Positions 43,292 through 52,169 of a stretch of 64,000 nt of DNA are shown piece after piece. This stretch comes from Streptomyces sp. NBC_00513. Lineage in GTDB: Bacteria > Actinomycetota > Actinomycetes > Streptomycetales > Streptomycetaceae. Position numbers and translations under genes: made by a program. Below the pieces are notes generated by a model. That model was given only the letters and a program-made list of their open reading frames with translations. It was not told the DNA's origin and searched no databases. Location of the stretch: assembly GCF_041431415.1 (NCBI RefSeq), contig NZ_CP107845.1, positions 5,394,001-5,458,000 of the forward strand, given 5' to 3'. Position 1 is the first letter of the stretch. Each line of letters begins with the position of its first letter.

Positions 43292-44377
43292 ATGACGACG
43301 CCCACGATCGAGCTCAAGCCCTCCTCGAACCCGCTGTCCGACGCGGAGCGCGAGGCGATCCTGGCCAGCCCCGGCTTCGGCCGCCACTTCACCGACCACA
43401 TGGTGACGATCAAGTGGACCGAGGGTCGCGGCTGGCACGACGCCGAGCTGGTCCCGTACGCGCCCCTGTCGATGGACCCGGCGAACATGACCCTGCACTA
43501 CGCGCAGACCATCTTCGAGGGACTCAAGGCCTACAAGCAGCCCGACGGCACCGTCGCCACCTTCCGCCCCGAGGCCAACGCGGACCGCTTCCAGGCCTCG
43601 GCCCGCCGCATGGCCATGCCCGAACTGCCCTCGGAGCTGTTCATCGCCGCCTGCGACGCGCTCATCAAGCAGGACCGTGCCTGGGTTCCGGACTCCGGCG
43701 AGGCCTCGCTGTACCTGCGCCCGTTCATGTTCGCGTCCGAGGTCGGTCTCGGCGTCCGCCCGGCCAACGAGTTCCTCTTCATGGTCATCGCCTCGCCCGC
43801 CGGCGCCTACTTCCCCGGTGGCGTCAAGCCCGTCTCCGTCTGGCTCTCCGAGGACTACGTCCGCGCGGTCAAGGGCGGCACCGGCGCGGCGAAGACCGGC
43901 GGCAACTACGCGGCCTCCCTCGTCGCCCAGGCCGAGGCCGCCTCGCACGGCTGCGACCAGGTCGTCTGGCTGGACGCCGTCGAGCACCGCTGGATCGAGG
44001 AGATGGGCGGGATGAACCTGTACTTCGTGTACGGCGACCGCATCGTCACCCCCGAGCTCACCGGATCGCTCCTCCCCGGCATCACCCGCGACTCCCTCCT
44101 CACCATCGCCCGTGACCTCGGCTACACCGCCGAGGAGGGCCGCATCACCACCGAGGACTGGAAGCGCGACAACGAGAACGGCACCCTGACCGAGGTGTTC
44201 GCCTGCGGCACCGCGGCCGTCATCACCCCCGTCGGCTCGGTCAAGTCCGGCCGCGCGAACTGGACGCAGGGCACCGGCGAGCCCGGCGAGGTCACCATGA
44301 AGCTCCGCAAGGCGCTCCTCGACCTCCAGACCGGCCACTCCGCCGACCGCCACGGCTGGATGCACCCGCTCGGTTAG
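43292..44377 (+). CDS. ilvE: Branched-chain amino acid aminotransferase
   Basis: A 361-residue class IV PLP aminotransferase making leucine, isoleucine and valine from their keto acids with glutamate. Seen: [40 protein letters not shown], the PLP-lysine in [35 protein letters not shown], and [24 protein letters not shown] about eight bases upstream serves as ribosome binding site. It has its own promoter region after the leuB terminator. Confidence 0.96.
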
Positions 44378-44400
44378 TACCGCGCGCTCGACGAAGTACG

Positions 44401-44440
44401 GCGAGAGGCCCGCACCCGATCCGGGGTGCGGGCCTCTCGC
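44401..44440. terminator. Bidirectional terminator between ilvE and the NCS1 permease gene
   Basis: A 17-bp perfect stem (44401-44417 with 44424-44440) around a six-base loop, between convergent genes. Confidence 0.88.
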
Positions 44441-44463
44441 CGTGGAGACGGGCCAAGCGAGGG

Positions 44464-45894
44464 CTAAGCGGCGACCGGCTCGTCGGCGGCTTCGGGGGCG
44501 GCCGGTGCGGCGACGGCCGCCTTCCGCCGGGTGAGGGCCGTGTAGGCGAGGCCGCCGACCAGGCCGGACAGGACGAAGGAACAGTCCACGCCGCCCGTCA
44601 GGGTCAACAGCGGTCCCTCGTAGAAGGGGGTGGTGACGGAGAGCAGGCCGACGCCCGCGCCGATCGCCCACGAGGCGGTGGCGGCCGGATTCCAACCGCC
44701 CCGGTACCAGTAGATCCCGCCCACCGAGCGGCGGTTGAACACCTGGAGGGCGTCGGCGTCGTACGTGCCGCGACAGCGCACGTGGCCGATCAGGGTGATC
44801 ACCGCCCACGGGGTGCCGAGCGCGGTGAGCAGCAGCACGAACGAGGTCATCGCGGACTGGACGTCCCACTCGAAGGAGCCGACGAACACGAAGGCGGTGG
44901 CCACACCGGCCGCGACCAGGGTGGCGGTCGTGCGGCTGGCCCGGGGCACGATCGCGTCCAGGTCGAGGCCCATGGAGTAGAGCATCAGCCCGGCGTTGCC
45001 CACGGAACCCGCGGCGGCGGCCACCAGCAGCGGGACCAGGTACCAGAACGGCGAGGCGTCGACCAGCGGCCCGGCGTACTCGGCGCCGGCCCGCGCGGCG
45101 AGGGCGGTGTACGTGCCGAAGAGCTGCGGGACCAGCAGGCCGACCAGGAGACCGAGCGCGGTGGACCGGAGCACCTTGCGGGAGTCGTGTCGGGCGGGGG
45201 AGATGTAGCGGGTGTAGTCGCCGAGCAGGGTGATGAAGGCGACGGGACCGCTGAGACCGGCGGCGACGGCGGCGAGCAGCCAGGTCGGCCAGAAGGAGCC
45301 GAGGAGGTAGGCGGTCTCCGGCGGCGCGGCGGCGGTGAAATCGGGGGCGTACGCGAAGACGCCGACGGCGAGCAGGACCACCATGGCGACGGACAGGATC
45401 TTGCTCATCCGCAGCAGGAGCCGGTAGCCGAACACCGCCGCTACGACGGTGCAGGCGGCCAGCACGCCGTACATCACGGCGCGCGAGACCCCGGTGTCCG
45501 GCAGCCCGGTGAGCCGGGACAGGGCGCCGACCATCACGTCGCCGCCGATCCACAGGGTCAGCGCCGTGTAGCCGAGGGAGAGCAGCAGGCCCACCACGGA
45601 CCCGACCAGCCGACCGCGCACGCCGAACTGGGCCCCGCTGGAGGTGGACAGGTTGGTTCCGGTGCGCAGGGAGACCAGCGCCAGCGGGGCGGTGAAGGCG
45701 ATCCCGACGACGGTGCCGGTCACGATCGCGGTCACCGAGGGCCACAGCCCCAGTCCGAAGGACGGGGGCAGCCAGCCGAAGACGATCACGCCGAGGCAGA
45801 GGTTGGAGCCGAGGAGGATCGAGATCAGGTCGCGGGGGCCGCTCGTCCGCTCCTCCTCCGGGATGGTGTCGACTCCGCGCTGTTCGATGGGCAT
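44464..45894 (-). CDS. NCS1-family cytosine/purine-type permease
   Basis: A 476-residue membrane transporter of the nucleobase-cation symporter-1 family (cytosine, allantoin, hydantoin, thiamine and related substrates). About 12 hydrophobic segments are present. ISILLGSNLCLGVIVFGWLP in the first helix, FGVRGRLVGSVVGLLLSLGY and GPVAFITLLGDYTRYISPAR, with the DYTRY element, are typical. ATG 45894 follows AAGGGAG by about seven bases; the longer frame from 45951 is less likely. It is divergent from the urease-like operon across a shared control region, so a nitrogen-rich substrate that is then hydrolysed is a reasonable inference. Substrate unknown. Confidence 0.9.
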   Translation of the reverse strand: MPIEQRGVDTIPEEERTSGPRDLISILLGSNLCLGVIVFGWLPPSFGLGLWPSVTAIVTGTVVGIAFTAPLALVSLRTGTNLSTSSGAQFGVRGRLVGSVVGLLLSLGYTALTLWIGGDVMVGALSRLTGLPDTGVSRAVMYGVLAACTVVAAVFGYRLLLRMSKILSVAMVVLLAVGVFAYAPDFTAAAPPETAYLLGSFWPTWLLAAVAAGLSGPVAFITLLGDYTRYISPARHDSRKVLRSTALGLLVGLLVPQLFGTYTALAARAGAEYAGPLVDASPFWYLVPLLVAAAAGSVGNAGLMLYSMGLDLDAIVPRASRTTATLVAAGVATAFVFVGSFEWDVQSAMTSFVLLLTALGTPWAVITLIGHVRCRGTYDADALQVFNRRSVGGIYWYRGGWNPAATASWAIGAGVGLLSVTTPFYEGPLLTLTGGVDCSFVLSGLVGGLAYTALTRRKAAVAAPAAPEAADEPVAA

Positions 45895-46003
45895 GGGGGA
45901 ACTCCCTTGGCAGGGCGGGGGGTGGTTCGCAAAGGTTTGAGCGACATTCAATGTGGCGCAGCCCCTGCTCTCCGGTCAATGCTTCACTGCCGGGAAATGA
46001 AGA

Positions 46004-46022
46004 GTTAGAGTGATGCTCTAAC
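46004..46022. promoter_or_regulatory. Palindromic operator upstream of ureAB
   Basis: GTTAGAG-N5-CTCTAAC (46004-46010, 46016-46022) is a perfect 7-5-7 palindrome 29 bases before the ureAB start, in the divergent gap (45895-46050) with the permease. It has the form of a TetR operator; the TetR gene at the end of this operon is the best candidate binder. Confidence 0.65.
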
Positions 46023-46050
46023 CCATCGACTCCGAAGGTGGTGGATCGGC

Positions 46051-46824
46051 GTGCGGCTGACCCCAACCGAGCGCGACCGGCTGCTGCTCCGCAGTGCCGC
46101 GGAACTGGCCAGGGCCCGACGGGCCCGGGGCCTGCGCCTCAACGTCCCCGAGGCCACGGCGCTGATCGCGGACACGGTCTGCGAGGCCGCCCGCGACGGC
46201 AGGCGGCTGGCGGAGGCCATCGAGGAGGCCCGCGGCGTGCTGGGGCCCGACGACGTGCTGCCCGGCGTCGCCGACGTGGTCACCGAGGTGCACGTGGAGG
46301 CCGTCTTCGACGACGGCTCCCGCCTCGCGGTGGTCTCGGCCCCCATCCGCGGCGCCGTCCCGCTCGGCGACGACGCCCCCGGCGCGGTCGTGCCCGGCCC
46401 CGGCGCCCCCCAGCCGGAGCCCACGGTCCACCTCCACGTGCGCAACACCGCCGCCGTGCCGATCAGCGTGACCTCCCACTTCCACTTCTTCGAGGCCAAC
46501 CCGCGCCTCGACTTCGACCGCGCCGAGGCCTACGGCATGCGGCTGTGCGTGCCGGCGGGCTCCTCCGTGCGGTTCGACCCGCACGGCGAGGCCGAGGTCG
46601 GGCTGGTCCCCATCGGCGGCGCCCGCGTCGCCGTCGGTTTCGCCGGGCTGGTCGACGGCCCCCTCGACGCCCCCGGAGCCAAGGACGAGGCACTGCGCCG
46701 CGCCGTCGCCTGCGGCTACCTCGGCGCCGGCGGCGAGACCGCCGCCCCGGTGTCCCCGGCCGCCGCACCCGGGCCCGACGCCCCCGAGACCGGCGACGAC
46801 CATCCGGAAGGTGACCCCGCATGA
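46051..46824 (+). CDS. ureAB: Urease gamma/beta subunit fusion (urease-like)
   Basis: A 257-residue fusion. The N-terminal gamma domain reads MRLTPTERDRLLLRSAAELA, LRLNVPEATALIADTVCEAA and VLGPDDVLPGVADVVTEVHV. The C-terminal beta domain reads VHLHVRNTAAVPISVTSHFH, FFEANPRLDFDRAEAYGMRL and VPAGSSVRFDPHGEAEVGLV. An Ala/Pro-rich tail follows. Such fusions occur in some bacteria (Helicobacter UreA is one). The GTG start overlaps nothing; the stop overlaps ureC by ATGA (46821-46824), so the subunits are translationally coupled. Sequences are clearly divergent from standard ureases, and no accessory genes are nearby. Confidence 0.9.
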   Translation: MRLTPTERDRLLLRSAAELARARRARGLRLNVPEATALIADTVCEAARDGRRLAEAIEEARGVLGPDDVLPGVADVVTEVHVEAVFDDGSRLAVVSAPIRGAVPLGDDAPGAVVPGPGAPQPEPTVHLHVRNTAAVPISVTSHFHFFEANPRLDFDRAEAYGMRLCVPAGSSVRFDPHGEAEVGLVPIGGARVAVGFAGLVDGPLDAPGAKDEALRRAVACGYLGAGGETAAPVSPAAAPGPDAPETGDDHPEGDPA

Positions 46825-48554
46825 GCCGCCAGACCCCGCACAGCGACCACTGCGCGCCGGGCAGCCGTCACATCGACCCGCACGAGTACGCCTCCGTCTT
46901 CGGCCCCCGCGCCGGCGACCGGGTACGCCTCGGCGACTCCGGGCTGACCGTCCGCGTCGAGCACGACGCCCAGAAGCCCGGCGACGAGTTCCTGGCCGGC
47001 TTCGGCAAGACCGCCCGCGACGGCCTGCACCTCAAGGCCGCCGCCGTCCGCGATACCTGCGACGTCGTGATCAGCAACGTGCTGGTCATCGACGCCGTCC
47101 TCGGCATCCGCAAGGTCTCCATCGGCATCCGCGAGGGCCGCATCCACGCGATCGGCCGCGCCGGCAATCCCGACACCCTCGACGGGGTCGACGTGGTCGT
47201 CGGCACCGGCACCTCGATCGTGTCCGGCGAGGGCATGATCGCCACCGCCGGAGCCGTGGACACCCACGTCCACCTGCTCTCCCCGCGCATCATGGAGGCC
47301 TCGCTCGCCGCGGGCGTCACCACGATCATCGGCCAGGAGTTCGGGCCGGTCTGGGGCGTGGGCGTCAACTCCCCCTGGGCGCTCAAGCACGCCTTCAACG
47401 CCTTCGACGCCTGGCCCGTCAACATCGGCTTCCTCGCCCGCGGCTCCTCCTCGGACGCCGCCCCGCTGGTCGAGGCCCTCGCCGAGGGCGGCGCCAGCGG
47501 CTTCAAGGTCCACGAGGACATGGGCGCCCACACCCGCGCCCTGGACACCGCCCTGCGGGTCGCCGAGGAGTACGACGTCCAGGTCGCCCTGCACAGCGAC
47601 GGCCTCAACGAGTGCCTCTCCGTCGAGGACACCCTGCGCGTCCTGGACGGTCGCACCATCCACGCCTTCCACATCGAGGGCTGCGGCGGCGGACACGTGC
47701 CCAACGTGCTCAAGATGGCCGGCGTGCCGAACGTCATCGGCTCCTCCACCAACCCGACGCTGCCCTTCGGTCGGGACGCCGTCGCCGAGCACTACGGCAT
47801 GATCGTCTCCGTCCACGACCTCAAGCCCGACCTCCCCGGCGACGCGGCCATGGCCCGCGACCGGATCCGCGCGGGCACCATGGGCGCCGAGGACGTGCTG
47901 CACGACCTGGGCGCGATCGGCATCACCTCCTCCGACGCGCAGGGCATGGGCCGCGCGGGCGAGACCATCCGGCGCACCTTCGCCATGGCCGCGAAGATGA
48001 AGGGCGAACTGGGCCCGCTCGACGGCGACGGCGAGGGCGACGACAACGCCCGCGTCCTGCGCTACATGGCCAAGCTGACCATCAACCCGGCCATCGCCCA
48101 CGGCCTGGCCCACGAGATCGGCTCCATCGAGGTCGGCAAACTCGCCGACATCGTCCTGTGGCGCCCCCAGTTCTTCGGCGCCAAGCCGCAACTCGTCCTC
48201 AAGTCCGGCTTCCCCGCGTACGGCGTCACCGGCGACCCCAACGCCGCCACCGACACCTGCGAACCGCTCGTCCTCGGCCCGCAGTTCGGTTCGTACGGAG
48301 CCACCGCGGCCGACATCTCCGTCGCCTTCGTGTCGGCGGCGGCCGCCGCGCTCGGCTCCGACGAGATGCCGACCCGGCGCCGCCGGGTGGCCGTTCGCGG
48401 AACCCGCGGCATCGGCCCCCGGGACCTCCTGCTCAACTCCCGGGTGGGCGCGGTCGATGTGGACGCGCGCAGCGGCCTCGTCTCCCTCGACGGAGAACCC
48501 CTGCGCTCCGAAGCGGCCGATTCGGTCTCCCTCAACCGCCTGTACTTCCTGTAA
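46821..48554 (+). CDS. ureC: Urease alpha subunit-like amidohydrolase, altered active-site flap
   Basis: A 577-residue amidohydrolase of the urease alpha family. The nickel-binding set is present: His149 and His151 (AVDTHVHLL), carbamylation Lys229 with His231 (GFKVHEDMG), His258 (VALHSDGLNE), His284 (AFHIEGCGGGH) and Asp372 (ITSSDAQGMGR). However, the mobile-flap Cys-His-His of canonical urease reads Val331-His332-Asp333 (MIVSVHDLKPD), so the flap cysteine is lost. No ureD, E, F or G gene is in the window, so metallation would need genes elsewhere or a different metal. It may hydrolyse urea weakly or another ureido/guanidino compound. It is followed by agmatine deiminase after 19 bases. Confidence 0.9.
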   Translation: MSRQTPHSDHCAPGSRHIDPHEYASVFGPRAGDRVRLGDSGLTVRVEHDAQKPGDEFLAGFGKTARDGLHLKAAAVRDTCDVVISNVLVIDAVLGIRKVSIGIREGRIHAIGRAGNPDTLDGVDVVVGTGTSIVSGEGMIATAGAVDTHVHLLSPRIMEASLAAGVTTIIGQEFGPVWGVGVNSPWALKHAFNAFDAWPVNIGFLARGSSSDAAPLVEALAEGGASGFKVHEDMGAHTRALDTALRVAEEYDVQVALHSDGLNECLSVEDTLRVLDGRTIHAFHIEGCGGGHVPNVLKMAGVPNVIGSSTNPTLPFGRDAVAEHYGMIVSVHDLKPDLPGDAAMARDRIRAGTMGAEDVLHDLGAIGITSSDAQGMGRAGETIRRTFAMAAKMKGELGPLDGDGEGDDNARVLRYMAKLTINPAIAHGLAHEIGSIEVGKLADIVLWRPQFFGAKPQLVLKSGFPAYGVTGDPNAATDTCEPLVLGPQFGSYGATAADISVAFVSAAAAALGSDEMPTRRRRVAVRGTRGIGPRDLLLNSRVGAVDVDARSGLVSLDGEPLRSEAADSVSLNRLYFL

Positions 48555-48573
48555 GCCAGTAAGGATCCCCGCC

Positions 48574-49620
48574 ATGACCGACGCTGCCGACAAGCCCGCC
48601 GCCCACGGATACCGGATGCCCGCCGAGTGGACCCCCCACGAGCGCACCTGGATGGCCTGGCCGAGCCCCAACCCGACCTTCACCGACGAGAGGGAACTCG
48701 CCGAGGCCCGCGAGGCATGGGGAGCCGTCGCCCGAGCCGTGCGCGCGTACGAGCCGGTGACCCTCGTCGTCTCCCCGGGCGACGCGCAGGGCGCCCGCGC
48801 GATCGTCGGCGACGACGTCGAGCTGGTCGAGCGCGAGCTGGACGACGCCTGGATGCGGGACATCGGCCCGACCTTCGTCACCGACGGCGCCGGCGGGCTC
48901 GCCGCCGTCGACTGGACCTTCAACGGCTGGGGCGCCCAGGAGTGGGCCCGCTGGGGCCACGACGAGAAGATCGCCCGCCACGTCTCCGACCTGGCCGGCA
49001 CCCGTACCTACAGCACCCCGCTGGTCAACGAGGGCGGCGCCATCCACGTGGACGGCGAGGGCACCGTGCTGCTCACCGACACCGTGCAGCTCGGCGCCGG
49101 ACGCAACCCCGACTGGAACCGCCGGCAGGTGGAGGAGGAGATCCACGCCCACCTCGGCACGACCAAGGCGATCTGGCTGCCCTACGGCCTGGCCGGCGAC
49201 TACGGCACCTACGGCACCCAGGGCCACGTGGACATCGTCGCCGCCTTCGCCCGCCCCGGTGTCGTCATGGTCCACAGCCAGCCCGACCCGGCCCACCCCG
49301 ACCACGAGCGCTGCAAGACCATCGCCGCCCTCCTGCGCGCGTCCACCGACGCGCGGGGCCGGCTGCTGGAGGTCGTGGAGATCCCGGCGCCGACCGTGCT
49401 GGAGGAGGACGGCGAGTGGGTCGACTACTCGTACATCAACCACTACCTCTGCAACGACGGCGTGGTGCTCTGCGCCTTCGACGACCCGCGCGACGAGGAA
49501 GCCGCGGAGATCTTCCGGGGTCTGTTCCCCGAGCGGACCGTGACACTGGTTGACGCACGTACGATTTTCGCCGGGGGTGGCGGTATCCACTGCATCACCC
49601 AGCAACAGCCGAAGGTCTGA
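48574..49620 (+). CDS. aguA: Agmatine deiminase
   Basis: A 348-residue guanidino-group-modifying enzyme of the agmatine/peptidyl-arginine deiminase family, producing N-carbamoylputrescine and ammonia from agmatine. Motifs are MPAEWTPHERTWMAWPSPNP, DDAWMRDIGPTFVTDGAGGL, VNEGGAIHVDGEGTVLLTD, GHVDIVAAFARPGVVMVHSQ and the nucleophile Cys340 in AGGGGIHCITQQQP. AAGGA stands several bases before the ATG. It lies in the same operon as the urease-like genes, which suggests joint metabolism of a guanidino or ureido compound with nitrogen release. Confidence 0.93.
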   Translation: MTDAADKPAAHGYRMPAEWTPHERTWMAWPSPNPTFTDERELAEAREAWGAVARAVRAYEPVTLVVSPGDAQGARAIVGDDVELVERELDDAWMRDIGPTFVTDGAGGLAAVDWTFNGWGAQEWARWGHDEKIARHVSDLAGTRTYSTPLVNEGGAIHVDGEGTVLLTDTVQLGAGRNPDWNRRQVEEEIHAHLGTTKAIWLPYGLAGDYGTYGTQGHVDIVAAFARPGVVMVHSQPDPAHPDHERCKTIAALLRASTDARGRLLEVVEIPAPTVLEEDGEWVDYSYINHYLCNDGVVLCAFDDPRDEEAAEIFRGLFPERTVTLVDARTIFAGGGGIHCITQQQPKV

Positions 49621-49650
49621 CCCGCGGCGAACGGTTTCGAGGAGTGGTCC

Positions 49651-50259
49651 ATGGTGGCGGGTGGAGTACGGGCGGCGCGGAAGAACGCGCCGCCGCGCGA
49701 GGACGTACTCGTCGCCGCCATGGCCACGATCGCCGAGCGCGGCCTCGAAGGCCTCACCATGGCCGGCCTCGGCCGCCAGGTGGGCATGAGCAGCGGCCAC
49801 CTCCTCTACTACTTCGGCAGCAAGGACGAACTCCTGCTGCAGACCCTGGAGTGGAGCGAGGCCTCCCTCGGCGCCGAACGCCGGGCCCTGCTGTCCCGCC
49901 GCGGCCCGGTGCGCGAGCGGGTGCAGGCGTACGTCGACCTGTACGTGCCCGAGGCCGCGCGCGACCCGCACTGGACGCTGTGGCTGGAGGTCTGGAACCG
50001 CTCGCAGAACGCCGGCCCCCTGGAACGCGAGCGCCAGGCCGCCATCGAGGGAGCCTGGCACCGGGACCTGGTCGCGCTGCTCGCCGAGGGCATCTCGCGC
50101 GGCGAGTTCCGCGCGGTGGACGCCGACCGGTTCGCCGCCCGCGTCAGGGCCCTGCTCGACGGGTTCAGCATCCAGGTCGCCGTCGGCCTGCCCGGGATAG
50201 GGCGCGGCGACATCCTCGAACACGTCACCGAGTTCCTGGACGAGGCGCTCGTATCGTGA
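49651..50259 (+). CDS. TetR-family regulator of the urease-like/agmatine operon
   Basis: A 202-residue TetR regulator. The HTH reads AERGLEGLTMAGLGRQVGMS then SGHLLYYFGSKDELLLQTLE. The C-terminal part (YVDLYVPEAARDPHWTLWLE, WNRSQ) resembles the BetI-like TetR_C_6 ligand domain. GAGGAG six bases before the ATG is a good ribosome binding site. As the last gene of the operon it probably responds to the pathway substrate and binds the palindrome at 46004-46022. That link is inference. Confidence 0.88.
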   Translation: MVAGGVRAARKNAPPREDVLVAAMATIAERGLEGLTMAGLGRQVGMSSGHLLYYFGSKDELLLQTLEWSEASLGAERRALLSRRGPVRERVQAYVDLYVPEAARDPHWTLWLEVWNRSQNAGPLERERQAAIEGAWHRDLVALLAEGISRGEFRAVDADRFAARVRALLDGFSIQVAVGLPGIGRGDILEHVTEFLDEALVS

Positions 50260-50317
50260 GACGTCGGTCCGCGGGCGGAGCCCCTTGTGACACACTGCGG
50301 ACGTGCCTGCTCAGCTC

Positions 50318-50359
50318 ATGATTATGGACAGCAGCGCGCCGGTCCGCAGTGACCGTTGA
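50318..50359 (+). CDS. Possible leader peptide MIMDSSAPVRSDR upstream of cimA
   Basis: A 13-codon frame in the 281-base gap before cimA, upstream of a terminator hairpin. It carries one Ile, one Val and no Leu codon and no strong ribosome binding site, so a role in attenuation is doubtful but possible. Confidence 0.3.
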   Translation: MIMDSSAPVRSDR

Positions 50360-50409
50360 GCCGTGGAGAACCTACGGGACAGCGGCCACAGTGCCTCAGA
50401 CCCGCGCGC

Positions 50410-50438
50410 AGACCTCTCGCACCCGCGAGGGGTCTTTT
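50410..50438 (+). terminator. Terminator/attenuator in the cimA leader
   Basis: AGACCTCTCGC pairs with GCGAGGGGTCT (50410-50420, 50425-50435, one G-U pair) across an ACCC loop and is followed by TTTT. It lies about 100 bases before cimA. It is either the terminator of the upstream TetR operon or a conditional attenuator of cimA. Confidence 0.7.
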
Positions 50439-50540
50439 CGTTTCCCGGCTCCATTCCTGCCGGGAGCGGGCGGCGCGCGATGATGGGGGCAGTGGATCCC
50501 CGGTCTCCGGAACCACTCATCCGACAGGAGTCAGACCAGC

Positions 50541-52169
50541 ATGACGACGACAGAGGCGACCGAGCCGACTGCGCCGGCGGGCCCCGACGACAGCTTCCAC
50601 GTCTTCGACACGACCCTGCGCGACGGCGCCCAGCGTGAGGGCATCAACCTCACGGTCGCGGACAAGCTGACCATCGCGCGGCACCTGGACGACTTCGGAG
50701 TGGGCTTCATCGAGGGCGGCTGGCCCGGCGCCAACCCCCGCGACACCGAGTTCTTCGCCCGCGCCCGTGCCGAGATCGACTTCAAGCACGCCCGCCTCGT
50801 GGCCTTCGGCGCCACCCGCCGGGCCGGCGGCTCCGCCGCCGCGGACCCCCAGGTGCGGGCCCTGCTGGAGTCCGGCGCCCCGGTGATCACCCTGGTCGCC
50901 AAATCCCACGACCGGCACGTCGAGCTCGCGCTGCGCACCACCCTCGACGAGAACCTGGAGATGGTCCGGGACACCGTCTCCCACCTCGTCGAGCAGGGGC
51001 GCCGGGTCTTCGTCGACTGCGAGCACTTCTTCGACGGCTACCGCGCCAACCCCGAGTACGCCAAGGCCGTCGTCCGCACCGCACACGAGGCCGGCGCCGA
51101 TGTCGTCATCCTCTGCGACACCAATGGCGGCATGCTGCCCGCGCAGGTGTCCGCCACCGTCGCGACGGTCCTCGCCGACACCGGGGCCCGCCTGGGCATC
51201 CACGCCCAGGACGACACCGGCTGCGCCGTCGCCAACACCCTGGCCGCCGTCGACGCGGGCGCCACCCACGTCCAGTGCACCGCCAACGGCTACGGCGAGC
51301 GCGTCGGCAACGCCAACCTCTTCCCCGTCGTCGGCGCCCTGGAGATCAAGTACGGGCGCACGGTGCTCCCCGCGGGCGCGCTCGCCGAGATGACCCGGAT
51401 CTCCCACGCCATCGCCGAGGTCGTCAACCTCACCCCGTCCACGCACCAGCCGTACGTCGGCGTCTCGGCCTTCGCGCACAAGGCCGGCCTGCACGCCTCG
51501 GCCATCAAGGTCGACCCCGACCTCTACCAGCACATCGACCCCGAGCGGGTCGGCAACACCATGCGGATGCTGGTCTCCGACATGGCCGGGCGCGCCTCCA
51601 TCGAGCTCAAGGGCAAGGAACTCGGCGTCGACCTCGGCGGCGACCGCGCGCTGATCTCCCGGGTCGTGGAGCGGGTCAAGGAGCGGGAGCTCCAGGGCTA
51701 CACCTACGAGGCCGCCGACGCCTCCTTCGAGCTGCTGCTGCGGGCCGAGGCCGAGGGCCGGGCGCGCAGGTACTTCCGGATCGAGTCCTGGCGGGCGATC
51801 GTCGAGGACCGCCCGGACGGCACCCACGCCAACGAGGCCACGGTCAAGCTGTGGGCCAAGGGCGAGCGGATCGTCGCGACGGCGGAGGGCAACGGCCCCG
51901 TCAACGCGCTGGACCGGGCCCTGCGGGTGGCGCTGGAGCCGTTCTACCCGCAGCTCGCCAAGTTCGAGCTGATCGACTACAAGGTCCGCATCCTGGAGGG
52001 CAAGCACGGCACCGACTCCACCACGCGCGTGCTGATCGCCACGACGGACGGCGCCGGCGAGTGGTCCACGGTCGGCGTCGGCACGAACGTCATCGCCGCG
52101 TCCTGGCAGGCCCTGGAGGACGCCTTCACGTACGGCCTGCTGCGCGCGGGCATCGAACCGGCCGAGTAG
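50541..52169 (+). CDS. cimA: Citramalate synthase (LeuA-like)
   Basis: A 542-residue member of the HMGL/LeuA family, CimA subgroup, condensing pyruvate and acetyl-CoA to (R)-citramalate on the threonine-independent route to isoleucine. The TIM barrel begins FHVFDTTLRDGAQREGINLT. The IEGGWPGANPRDTEFFARAR stretch is distinctive of the CimA subgroup. Metal-binding and active-site segments include CDTNGGMLPAQVSATVATVL, LGIHAQDDTGCAVANTLAAV and HVQCTANGYGERVGNANL. The C-terminal regulatory domain follows. AGGAG stands about ten bases upstream. 2-isopropylmalate synthase is the alternative label but fits less well. Confidence 0.93.
   Translation: MTTTEATEPTAPAGPDDSFHVFDTTLRDGAQREGINLTVADKLTIARHLDDFGVGFIEGGWPGANPRDTEFFARARAEIDFKHARLVAFGATRRAGGSAAADPQVRALLESGAPVITLVAKSHDRHVELALRTTLDENLEMVRDTVSHLVEQGRRVFVDCEHFFDGYRANPEYAKAVVRTAHEAGADVVILCDTNGGMLPAQVSATVATVLADTGARLGIHAQDDTGCAVANTLAAVDAGATHVQCTANGYGERVGNANLFPVVGALEIKYGRTVLPAGALAEMTRISHAIAEVVNLTPSTHQPYVGVSAFAHKAGLHASAIKVDPDLYQHIDPERVGNTMRMLVSDMAGRASIELKGKELGVDLGGDRALISRVVERVKERELQGYTYEAADASFELLLRAEAEGRARRYFRIESWRAIVEDRPDGTHANEATVKLWAKGERIVATAEGNGPVNALDRALRVALEPFYPQLAKFELIDYKVRILEGKHGTDSTTRVLIATTDGAGEWSTVGVGTNVIAASWQALEDAFTYGLLRAGIEPAE

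Follow-up and report, generated by a model that had tools for sequence, protein, structure and literature searches.

Nickel urease (UreABC, EC 3.5.1.5; PDB 1ejx, 1ie7 and 4z42) is the described system to which a urease-like gene pair of Streptomyces sp. NBC_00513, ureAB-ureC, is most naturally compared. The pair lies in a 64,000-nucleotide stretch of this 8.6-Mb genome (genome G000, contig C1:5394001-5458000), which as a whole we call the window and whose numbering is used for positions in the locus. Its UreC belongs to a clade, here termed type-2, that differs from nickel urease in lacking the Cys-His-His flap, in changed loops at 172-178 and 373-375, in showing no clade-wide dependence on UreF and UreG, and in having other gene partners. 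The iron urease of Helicobacter mustelae is independent of accessory genes. This enzyme, UreA2B2 (PDB 3qga), for which the accessible text of PMC11541087 reports an iron cofactor, has the urease fold in common with type-2 UreC, and at 42% identity it is no closer than the nickel ureases. Dihydroorotase, hydantoinase and allantoinase share 17-21% identity with UreC and have no UreAB partner.

In the AguA-AguB agmatine pathway, a deiminase acts first and a carbamoyl-group hydrolase second (PMC9397018, in the part available). We propose the same order here, with a hydrolase that would have the urease rather than the nitrilase fold; the window deiminase scores under the AguA cut-off. At about even confidence, we suggest from sequence comparison that ureAB-ureC encodes an accessory-independent, urease-fold ureidohydrolase that acts after the neighboring guanidine deiminase and is induced through a TetR palindrome.

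Clusters of ure(AB)C without accessory genes are described at SCO5525-SCO5527 of S. coelicolor and SAV2715 of S. avermitilis in the accessible part of PMC2492869. In that of PMC3293853, SCO5527 is listed as a homologue of the arginine decarboxylase (ADC) pathway, and SCO5525-5526 as urea-utilising genes unaffected by ArgR or arginine. Judged by description, these very probably represent this locus in other species. As far as the available text of both papers goes, it is treated as a second urease, from which our reading of type-2 differs. Among the papers listed in the open-licence literature searched, none proposes a non-urease function for the clade. PMC4991794 is not relevant to the locus: its available text applies the tag SCO5526 to nrdABS.

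Type-2 UreC and the urease accessory genes

The window ureC (46821-48554, + strand) encodes 577 amino acids and overlaps by 4 bases with ureAB (46051-46824, + strand), which has a GTG start and encodes a fused gamma/beta subunit of 257 amino acids. UreAB matches PF00547 and PF00699 in Pfam and passes the cut-off of a known fused gamma/beta subfamily in NCBIfam (PRK13192, 304.8 vs 243 bits). The fusion described in the initial annotation was real and is not odd in itself. Together, UreAB and UreC have the make-up of a urease: an alpha subunit of the urease fold plus the gamma and beta parts. Among the 50 entries shown in the structure comparison of UreC, 38 were urease alpha subunits; the other 12, far lower, were dihydroorotase, allantoinase, dihydropyrimidinase or hydantoinase. 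UreC fell under the curated urease-alpha equivalog cut-off (TIGR01792, 644.8 vs 680 bits). We regard type-2 as a variant form of the urease fold and not as an ordinary urease.

The residues H149, H151, K229, H258, H284 and D372 and the flap V331-H332-D333 were found exactly where the initial annotation had placed them. Metal ligands and catalytic residues are retained in type-2, and the ligands and the carbamylated-Lys position were invariant in 23 rows. In a tree with canonical ureases, the window UreC fell inside a separate type-2 clade of 41 of the 66 rows with support of 100/100; the rows were chosen representatives without UreA2B2, and the root was the midpoint only. The Cys-His-His flap was present in all 21 canonical rows and in none of the 41 type-2 rows. 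The flap Cys by itself occurred in two type-2 rows (L071 and L085; here and below, L numbers denote loci and G numbers genomes). The replaced cysteine that had been noted is thus correct for the window, with Val-His-Asp, but loss of Cys was ruled out as a clean type-2 marker. Variants of K. aerogenes urease at C319 were among the solved structures matched, so the fold does not require that Cys. Type-3 (L103, L105, L110 and L205) is another deep UreC clade, with the flap TMTVHR and again without Cys. At each of these four loci a PF07969 gene lies near UreC (partial in L105), and G043, with only a type-3 UreC, gave no UreD match.

As annotated, ureDEFG were absent from the locus, with none among its open reading frames (ORFs) or the families of the five genes. 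The genome does hold a second, canonical urease locus, a possibility raised at the outset, at C1:1517078-1520859, with UreC at 1519144-1520859 and UreF, UreG and UreD at 1517078-1519007. Type-2 UreC was present in at least 74 of 121 Streptomyces (a hand count that includes partial matches in G041 and G119), and UreD in 105 of the 121, the window genome included. Four of the at least 74 lacked UreD at E<=0.001. Two of them, G017 and G102, retain canonical UreC sequence, so assembly gaps are possible for their missing UreD. The other two, G094 (2 contigs, 100% complete) and G112 (91%), had no UreD, UreF or canonical UreC, and no UreG match over the cut-off. In G088 (C1:445167-448962) the canonical UreC is broken and UreD is a weak 23-bit remnant; the type-2 gene is intact.

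The pattern outside the genus was clearer at the level of the clade. In a draw of 394 genomes from the class, 61 had a UreC match at E<=1e-158: 28 of the window genus, 29 other type-2 genomes and four with lower-scoring UreC, which carry UreG and UreF. In 21 of the 29 non-Streptomyces type-2 genomes (estimated completeness 93-100%), UreF was absent, UreG gave nothing above the cut-off, and a genuine second UreC was lacking; among these, G146 gave one 46-bit match in the UreF/UreG search and G290 a 27-bit second-UreC fragment. In one further genome, G401, ureG is truncated where the contig ends. The type-2 clade is therefore independent of the standard nickel-loading proteins UreF and UreG. According to the initial annotation, accessory proteins encoded elsewhere would speak against its proposal; they are encoded in the window genome, but this is not true of the clade.

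Named hosts of type-2 include Kribbella catacumbae, Thermoactinospora rubra and Candidatus Nanopelagicales, among the best 80 of at least 549 loci. Records of metagenome-assembled genomes (MAGs) labelled Bifidobacterium breve (L123, L128 and L129) carry type-2 loci of the Nanopelagicales kind, and their labels are probably wrong.

Deiminase partnership and candidate operator

The gene 19 bp 3' of ureC (48574-49620, + strand, 348 amino acids) belongs to the agmatine deiminase family (PF04371, 369.9 bits, called on a translation with two extra residues before the ATG, start 48568) and keeps the catalytic Asp, His and Cys motifs. That much of its annotation as agmatine deiminase stood, but agmatine as its substrate is doubtful. 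The protein scored under the agmatine deiminase equivalog cut-off (TIGR03380, 320.9 vs 381.8 bits). It also has a loop insertion, and Gly at the position four residues before the catalytic His, where four different solved proteins aligned with it have Asp or Glu. In agmatine deiminase this acidic residue presumably binds the amine, and its loss suggests that agmatine may not be the substrate here. The protein belongs to a separate subfamily that lost this acid and is probably no standard agmatine deiminase; it may act on a guanidine that lacks the amine tail of agmatine.

Because deiminases convert guanidines into ureido compounds, release of CO2 and NH3 is expected of the enzyme that follows, as is established for AguA-AguB. 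In the proposed sequence of events, the guanidine deiminase would make a ureido (N-carbamoyl) product that is taken by UreABC, which would catalyze R-NH-CO-NH2 + H2O -> R-NH2 + CO2 + NH3. More likely than nickel would be a metal center in which a pair of Zn, Fe or Mn loads by itself onto carbamylated Lys229, and the tail accepted by UreABC may differ from operon to operon.

Distribution within Streptomyces was in line with this order. All 25 selected Streptomyces with type-2 had a deiminase of the window type (at least 70% identical), as did, at nearly full length, two of 12 without type-2; all were hand-picked, and the Fisher p of 1.9e-7 for this co-occurrence ignores relatedness. In the latter two, G005 and G015, ureABC is missing and the stretch between ilvE and cimA still contains the palindrome, the deiminase gene and tetR; in G072 only a deiminase remnant and tetR are left. 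In the sampled Streptomyces, the deiminase persists without UreABC, whereas UreABC never occurs without it, the pattern predicted for UreABC as the second enzyme.

Outside Streptomyces, neighbors were counted at 42 loci, some of which may still be close relatives; L122, L124 and L138 were left out as apparent repeats of G369, G409 and G161. UreAB adjoins UreC in 41 of the 42 (L131 is cut). Within 3 kb, 12 loci have a deiminase and 19 a PF07969 amidohydrolase, never both. The solved structures matched by the PF07969 partner were all uncharacterised hydrolases. Transport genes of Pot type, called by similarity to L089, lie within 8 kb at 13 of the 42 loci, with a similarity of only 27-45% in L151 and L168; the L089 binding protein is nearest to spermidine/putrescine-binding proteins. 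At the Streptomyces locus L046, deiminase, PF07969, NCS1-like and TetR-like genes, UreAB and UreC occur all together.

The window genome has a second deiminase operon, L216 (4710-12881, corresponding to about C1:6132700-6140900), in the order TetR, deiminase, AguB-like amidase, binding protein and ABC genes of an oligopeptide-type transporter. Its deiminase keeps the acid at -4, and its amidase scored 235 bits to TIGR03381, under the cut-off of 410. In the homologous operons L049, L050, L196 and L229, which have deiminases 66-68% identical to that of L216 and the same kind of binding protein (58% identical in L049 and L050), UreAB and UreC stand where L216 has the amidase; L223 has neither hydrolase. 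This single case is suggestive of displacement between UreABC and an AguB-like amidase, by position. Two type-2 copies occur in Streptomyces G083, G038, G012 and G004 (L048-L050, L228 and L229), one in the main locus and the other in a deiminase-rich region with different TetR genes.

The last gene of the operon, tetR (49651-50259, + strand), starts 30 bp 3' of the deiminase gene and encodes a 202-residue regulator with a BetI-type C-terminal domain (PF00440 and PF13977). An exact copy of the palindrome TTAGAG-N5-CTCTAA (46005..46021, no strand) lies 29 bp 5' of ureAB. We propose this palindrome as the TetR operator, which TetR would leave when the operon is induced. We examined 57 of the 66 loci L134-L199 (56 Streptomyces and one Thermoactinospora), after dropping eight with UreAB under 70% identity and one with UreAB cut. 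The palindrome was located 13-54 bp 5' of ureAB with at most one mismatch in 53 loci (29 exact) and at most two in 56, the Thermoactinospora site having two. The one exception, L196, is an operon whose TetR is of a different type. An initial control over 250-bp tiles still included the true sites and gave 41 of 4179 tiles within one mismatch; with these removed, none of 3714 other tiles of the same loci came within two mismatches. In the window alone, 0.19 matches within two mismatches are expected. A scan of 15 genomes placed the site 5' of ureAB in 10 of the 11 with the main type-2 locus (not in G034) and 5' of the deiminase in G005 and G015; G013 and G021, both without type-2, had no site. 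In G264, a genome from another family, the interval separating ureAB from a divergent TetR gene contains a site with one mismatch. The reversed-pattern control gave 0-4 sites per genome, so only the position of the operator is significant. A second palindrome of this form, in related positions beside an antiporter-like gene, was seen in G000 (C1:3480147), G083 (C1:3462591), G012 (C1:5103556), G071 (C119:186973) and G038 (C1:4527375); second palindromes elsewhere yielded no further pathway gene.

Taken with the maintenance of the clade without UreF and UreG, the deiminase link outside Streptomyces and the shared palindrome support in part the idea, put forward in the initial annotation, of a guanidino/ureido pathway instead of simple urea use. 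A wider extension is rather less likely than not, namely that type-2, perhaps with type-3, is a lineage of the urease fold that activates itself, uses a metal other than nickel and serves to hydrolyze ureido compounds when guanidines and polyamines are used as nitrogen sources. If the ureidohydrolase reading is true, a urease-fold enzyme without maturation proteins separates the needs of the fold from those of nickel loading, the evolution of urease maturation becomes testable, and guanidine and polyamine nitrogen use has a second, unrelated solution to the carbamoyl-amine step. If the family root lies on the nickel-urease branch, type-2 and type-3 would show urease before nickel and chaperones. 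All source-named relatives among the best 120 of 7998 scored carry the database name 'urease subunit alpha', so ureolysis is probably over-predicted in Streptomyces and Nanopelagicales-type MAGs.

Competing explanations

Several observations weigh against a ureidohydrolase following the deiminase. UreF and UreG are present in seven of the 29 type-2 genomes from outside Streptomyces, and the accessory searches covered UreF and UreG, with UreD in Streptomyces only and UreE not searched. A deiminase is entirely missing from six of 18 type-2 genomes outside Streptomyces; five of these, all but G412, have PF07969 beside UreABC. At 11 of the 42 loci neither deiminase nor PF07969 lies within 3 kb, and in three of these a Pot-type cluster has its PF07969 gene further off. 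Raw operator counts did not exceed the reversed-pattern control in several genomes (1 vs 4 in G094, 1 vs 3 in G264). The AguB swap is single, and G012, G038 and G083 hold UreABC together with a separate AguB-like gene. Weak AguB-family relatives were present in 55 of 55 genomes tested, none over the equivalog cut-off, so other enzymes of this kind may exist beside UreABC; AguB was rejected as a clean complement of type-2 on the same count.

The best-surviving alternative, which we nevertheless consider unlikely, is an accessory-independent urease with another metal, like that of H. mustelae, that splits urea made from guanidine by the deiminase-like enzyme. The accessory independence of the clade would fit this, and a deiminase that lost the acid at -4 could suit small guanidine. 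However, the PF07969 hydrolases and polyamine-type binding proteins at other loci do not point to urea. No guanidine riboswitch was found either: Rfam had no match in window positions 43900-50700, and only tRNAs in nine relative loci.

It is rather unlikely that UreABC hydrolyzes a quite different bond or serves specialised metabolism, with the deiminase link reflecting shared regulation only. The loci with neither partner nearby, the many pocket changes and three plasmid members in nonribosomal peptide synthetase (NRPS)-like clusters with a 2-oxoglutarate (2OG)-Fe oxygenase and phosphotransferases would agree with such a role. The exchange with an AguB-like amidase in a homologous operon argues against it, as does the retention of residues that bind metals and substrate in urease.

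We regard as quite improbable a second true nickel urease, acting on urea, whose loading in trans would fall to the UreDFG proteins of the canonical locus. The urease-alpha fold match, the retained ligands and carbamylated-Lys position, and UreD in the window genome and most Streptomyces are all compatible with it. Against it stand the 21 genomes without UreF, UreG or a second UreC, the Cys-His-His flap missing from every type-2 row and the score under the urease equivalog cut-off.

A catalytically dead or structural remnant, which the changed flap and absent accessory genes might suggest, is very improbable given the invariant ligands and a dN/dS (simple counting method, against six relatives) of 0.14-0.21 for UreC (6 pairs), as low as for cimA (0.13-0.26, 5 pairs) and leuB (0.16-0.36, 4 pairs). 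The deiminase gave 0.31-0.65 (6 pairs).

Locus organization and other relatives

The four-gene operon and divergent permease of the initial annotation were present in full and in the order described. The flanks of the operon resemble leuB, ilvE and cimA, as judged from ORF translations. The best relatives (best 120 of 7998 scored) are 87-98% identical, which excludes chance. The permease gene (44464-45894, - strand, 476 amino acids) lies 156 bp from ureAB and is divergent from the operon. It matches NCS1-type permeases in Pfam (PF02133, 305 bits), scored far under the NCBIfam NCS1 cut-off (51 vs 353 bits) and found no relative among solved structures. Initially taken as part of the pathway, it does adjoin the operon here but is no constant partner, with no NCS1 match at 21 of 60 related loci; the permease is a variable, optional partner.

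No sigma-70 consensus promoter was found in 44300-50560. A terminator-like hairpin lies 3' of tetR (50410..50435, + strand), from a consensus scan only, which found four against 1.3 expected from shuffling. In-frame TGA flags in G377 and G433 appear to lie 5' of the real UreC start.

The plasmid-borne type-2 relatives, L117 (6315-8701), L118 (6282-8647) and L119 (6273-8653), come from Embleya and Streptomyces. Besides UreAB and UreC, their NRPS-like clusters contain adenylation, condensation and phosphotransferase genes, a 2OG-Fe oxygenase-like gene and a 528-residue protein whose B12-binding match is weak.

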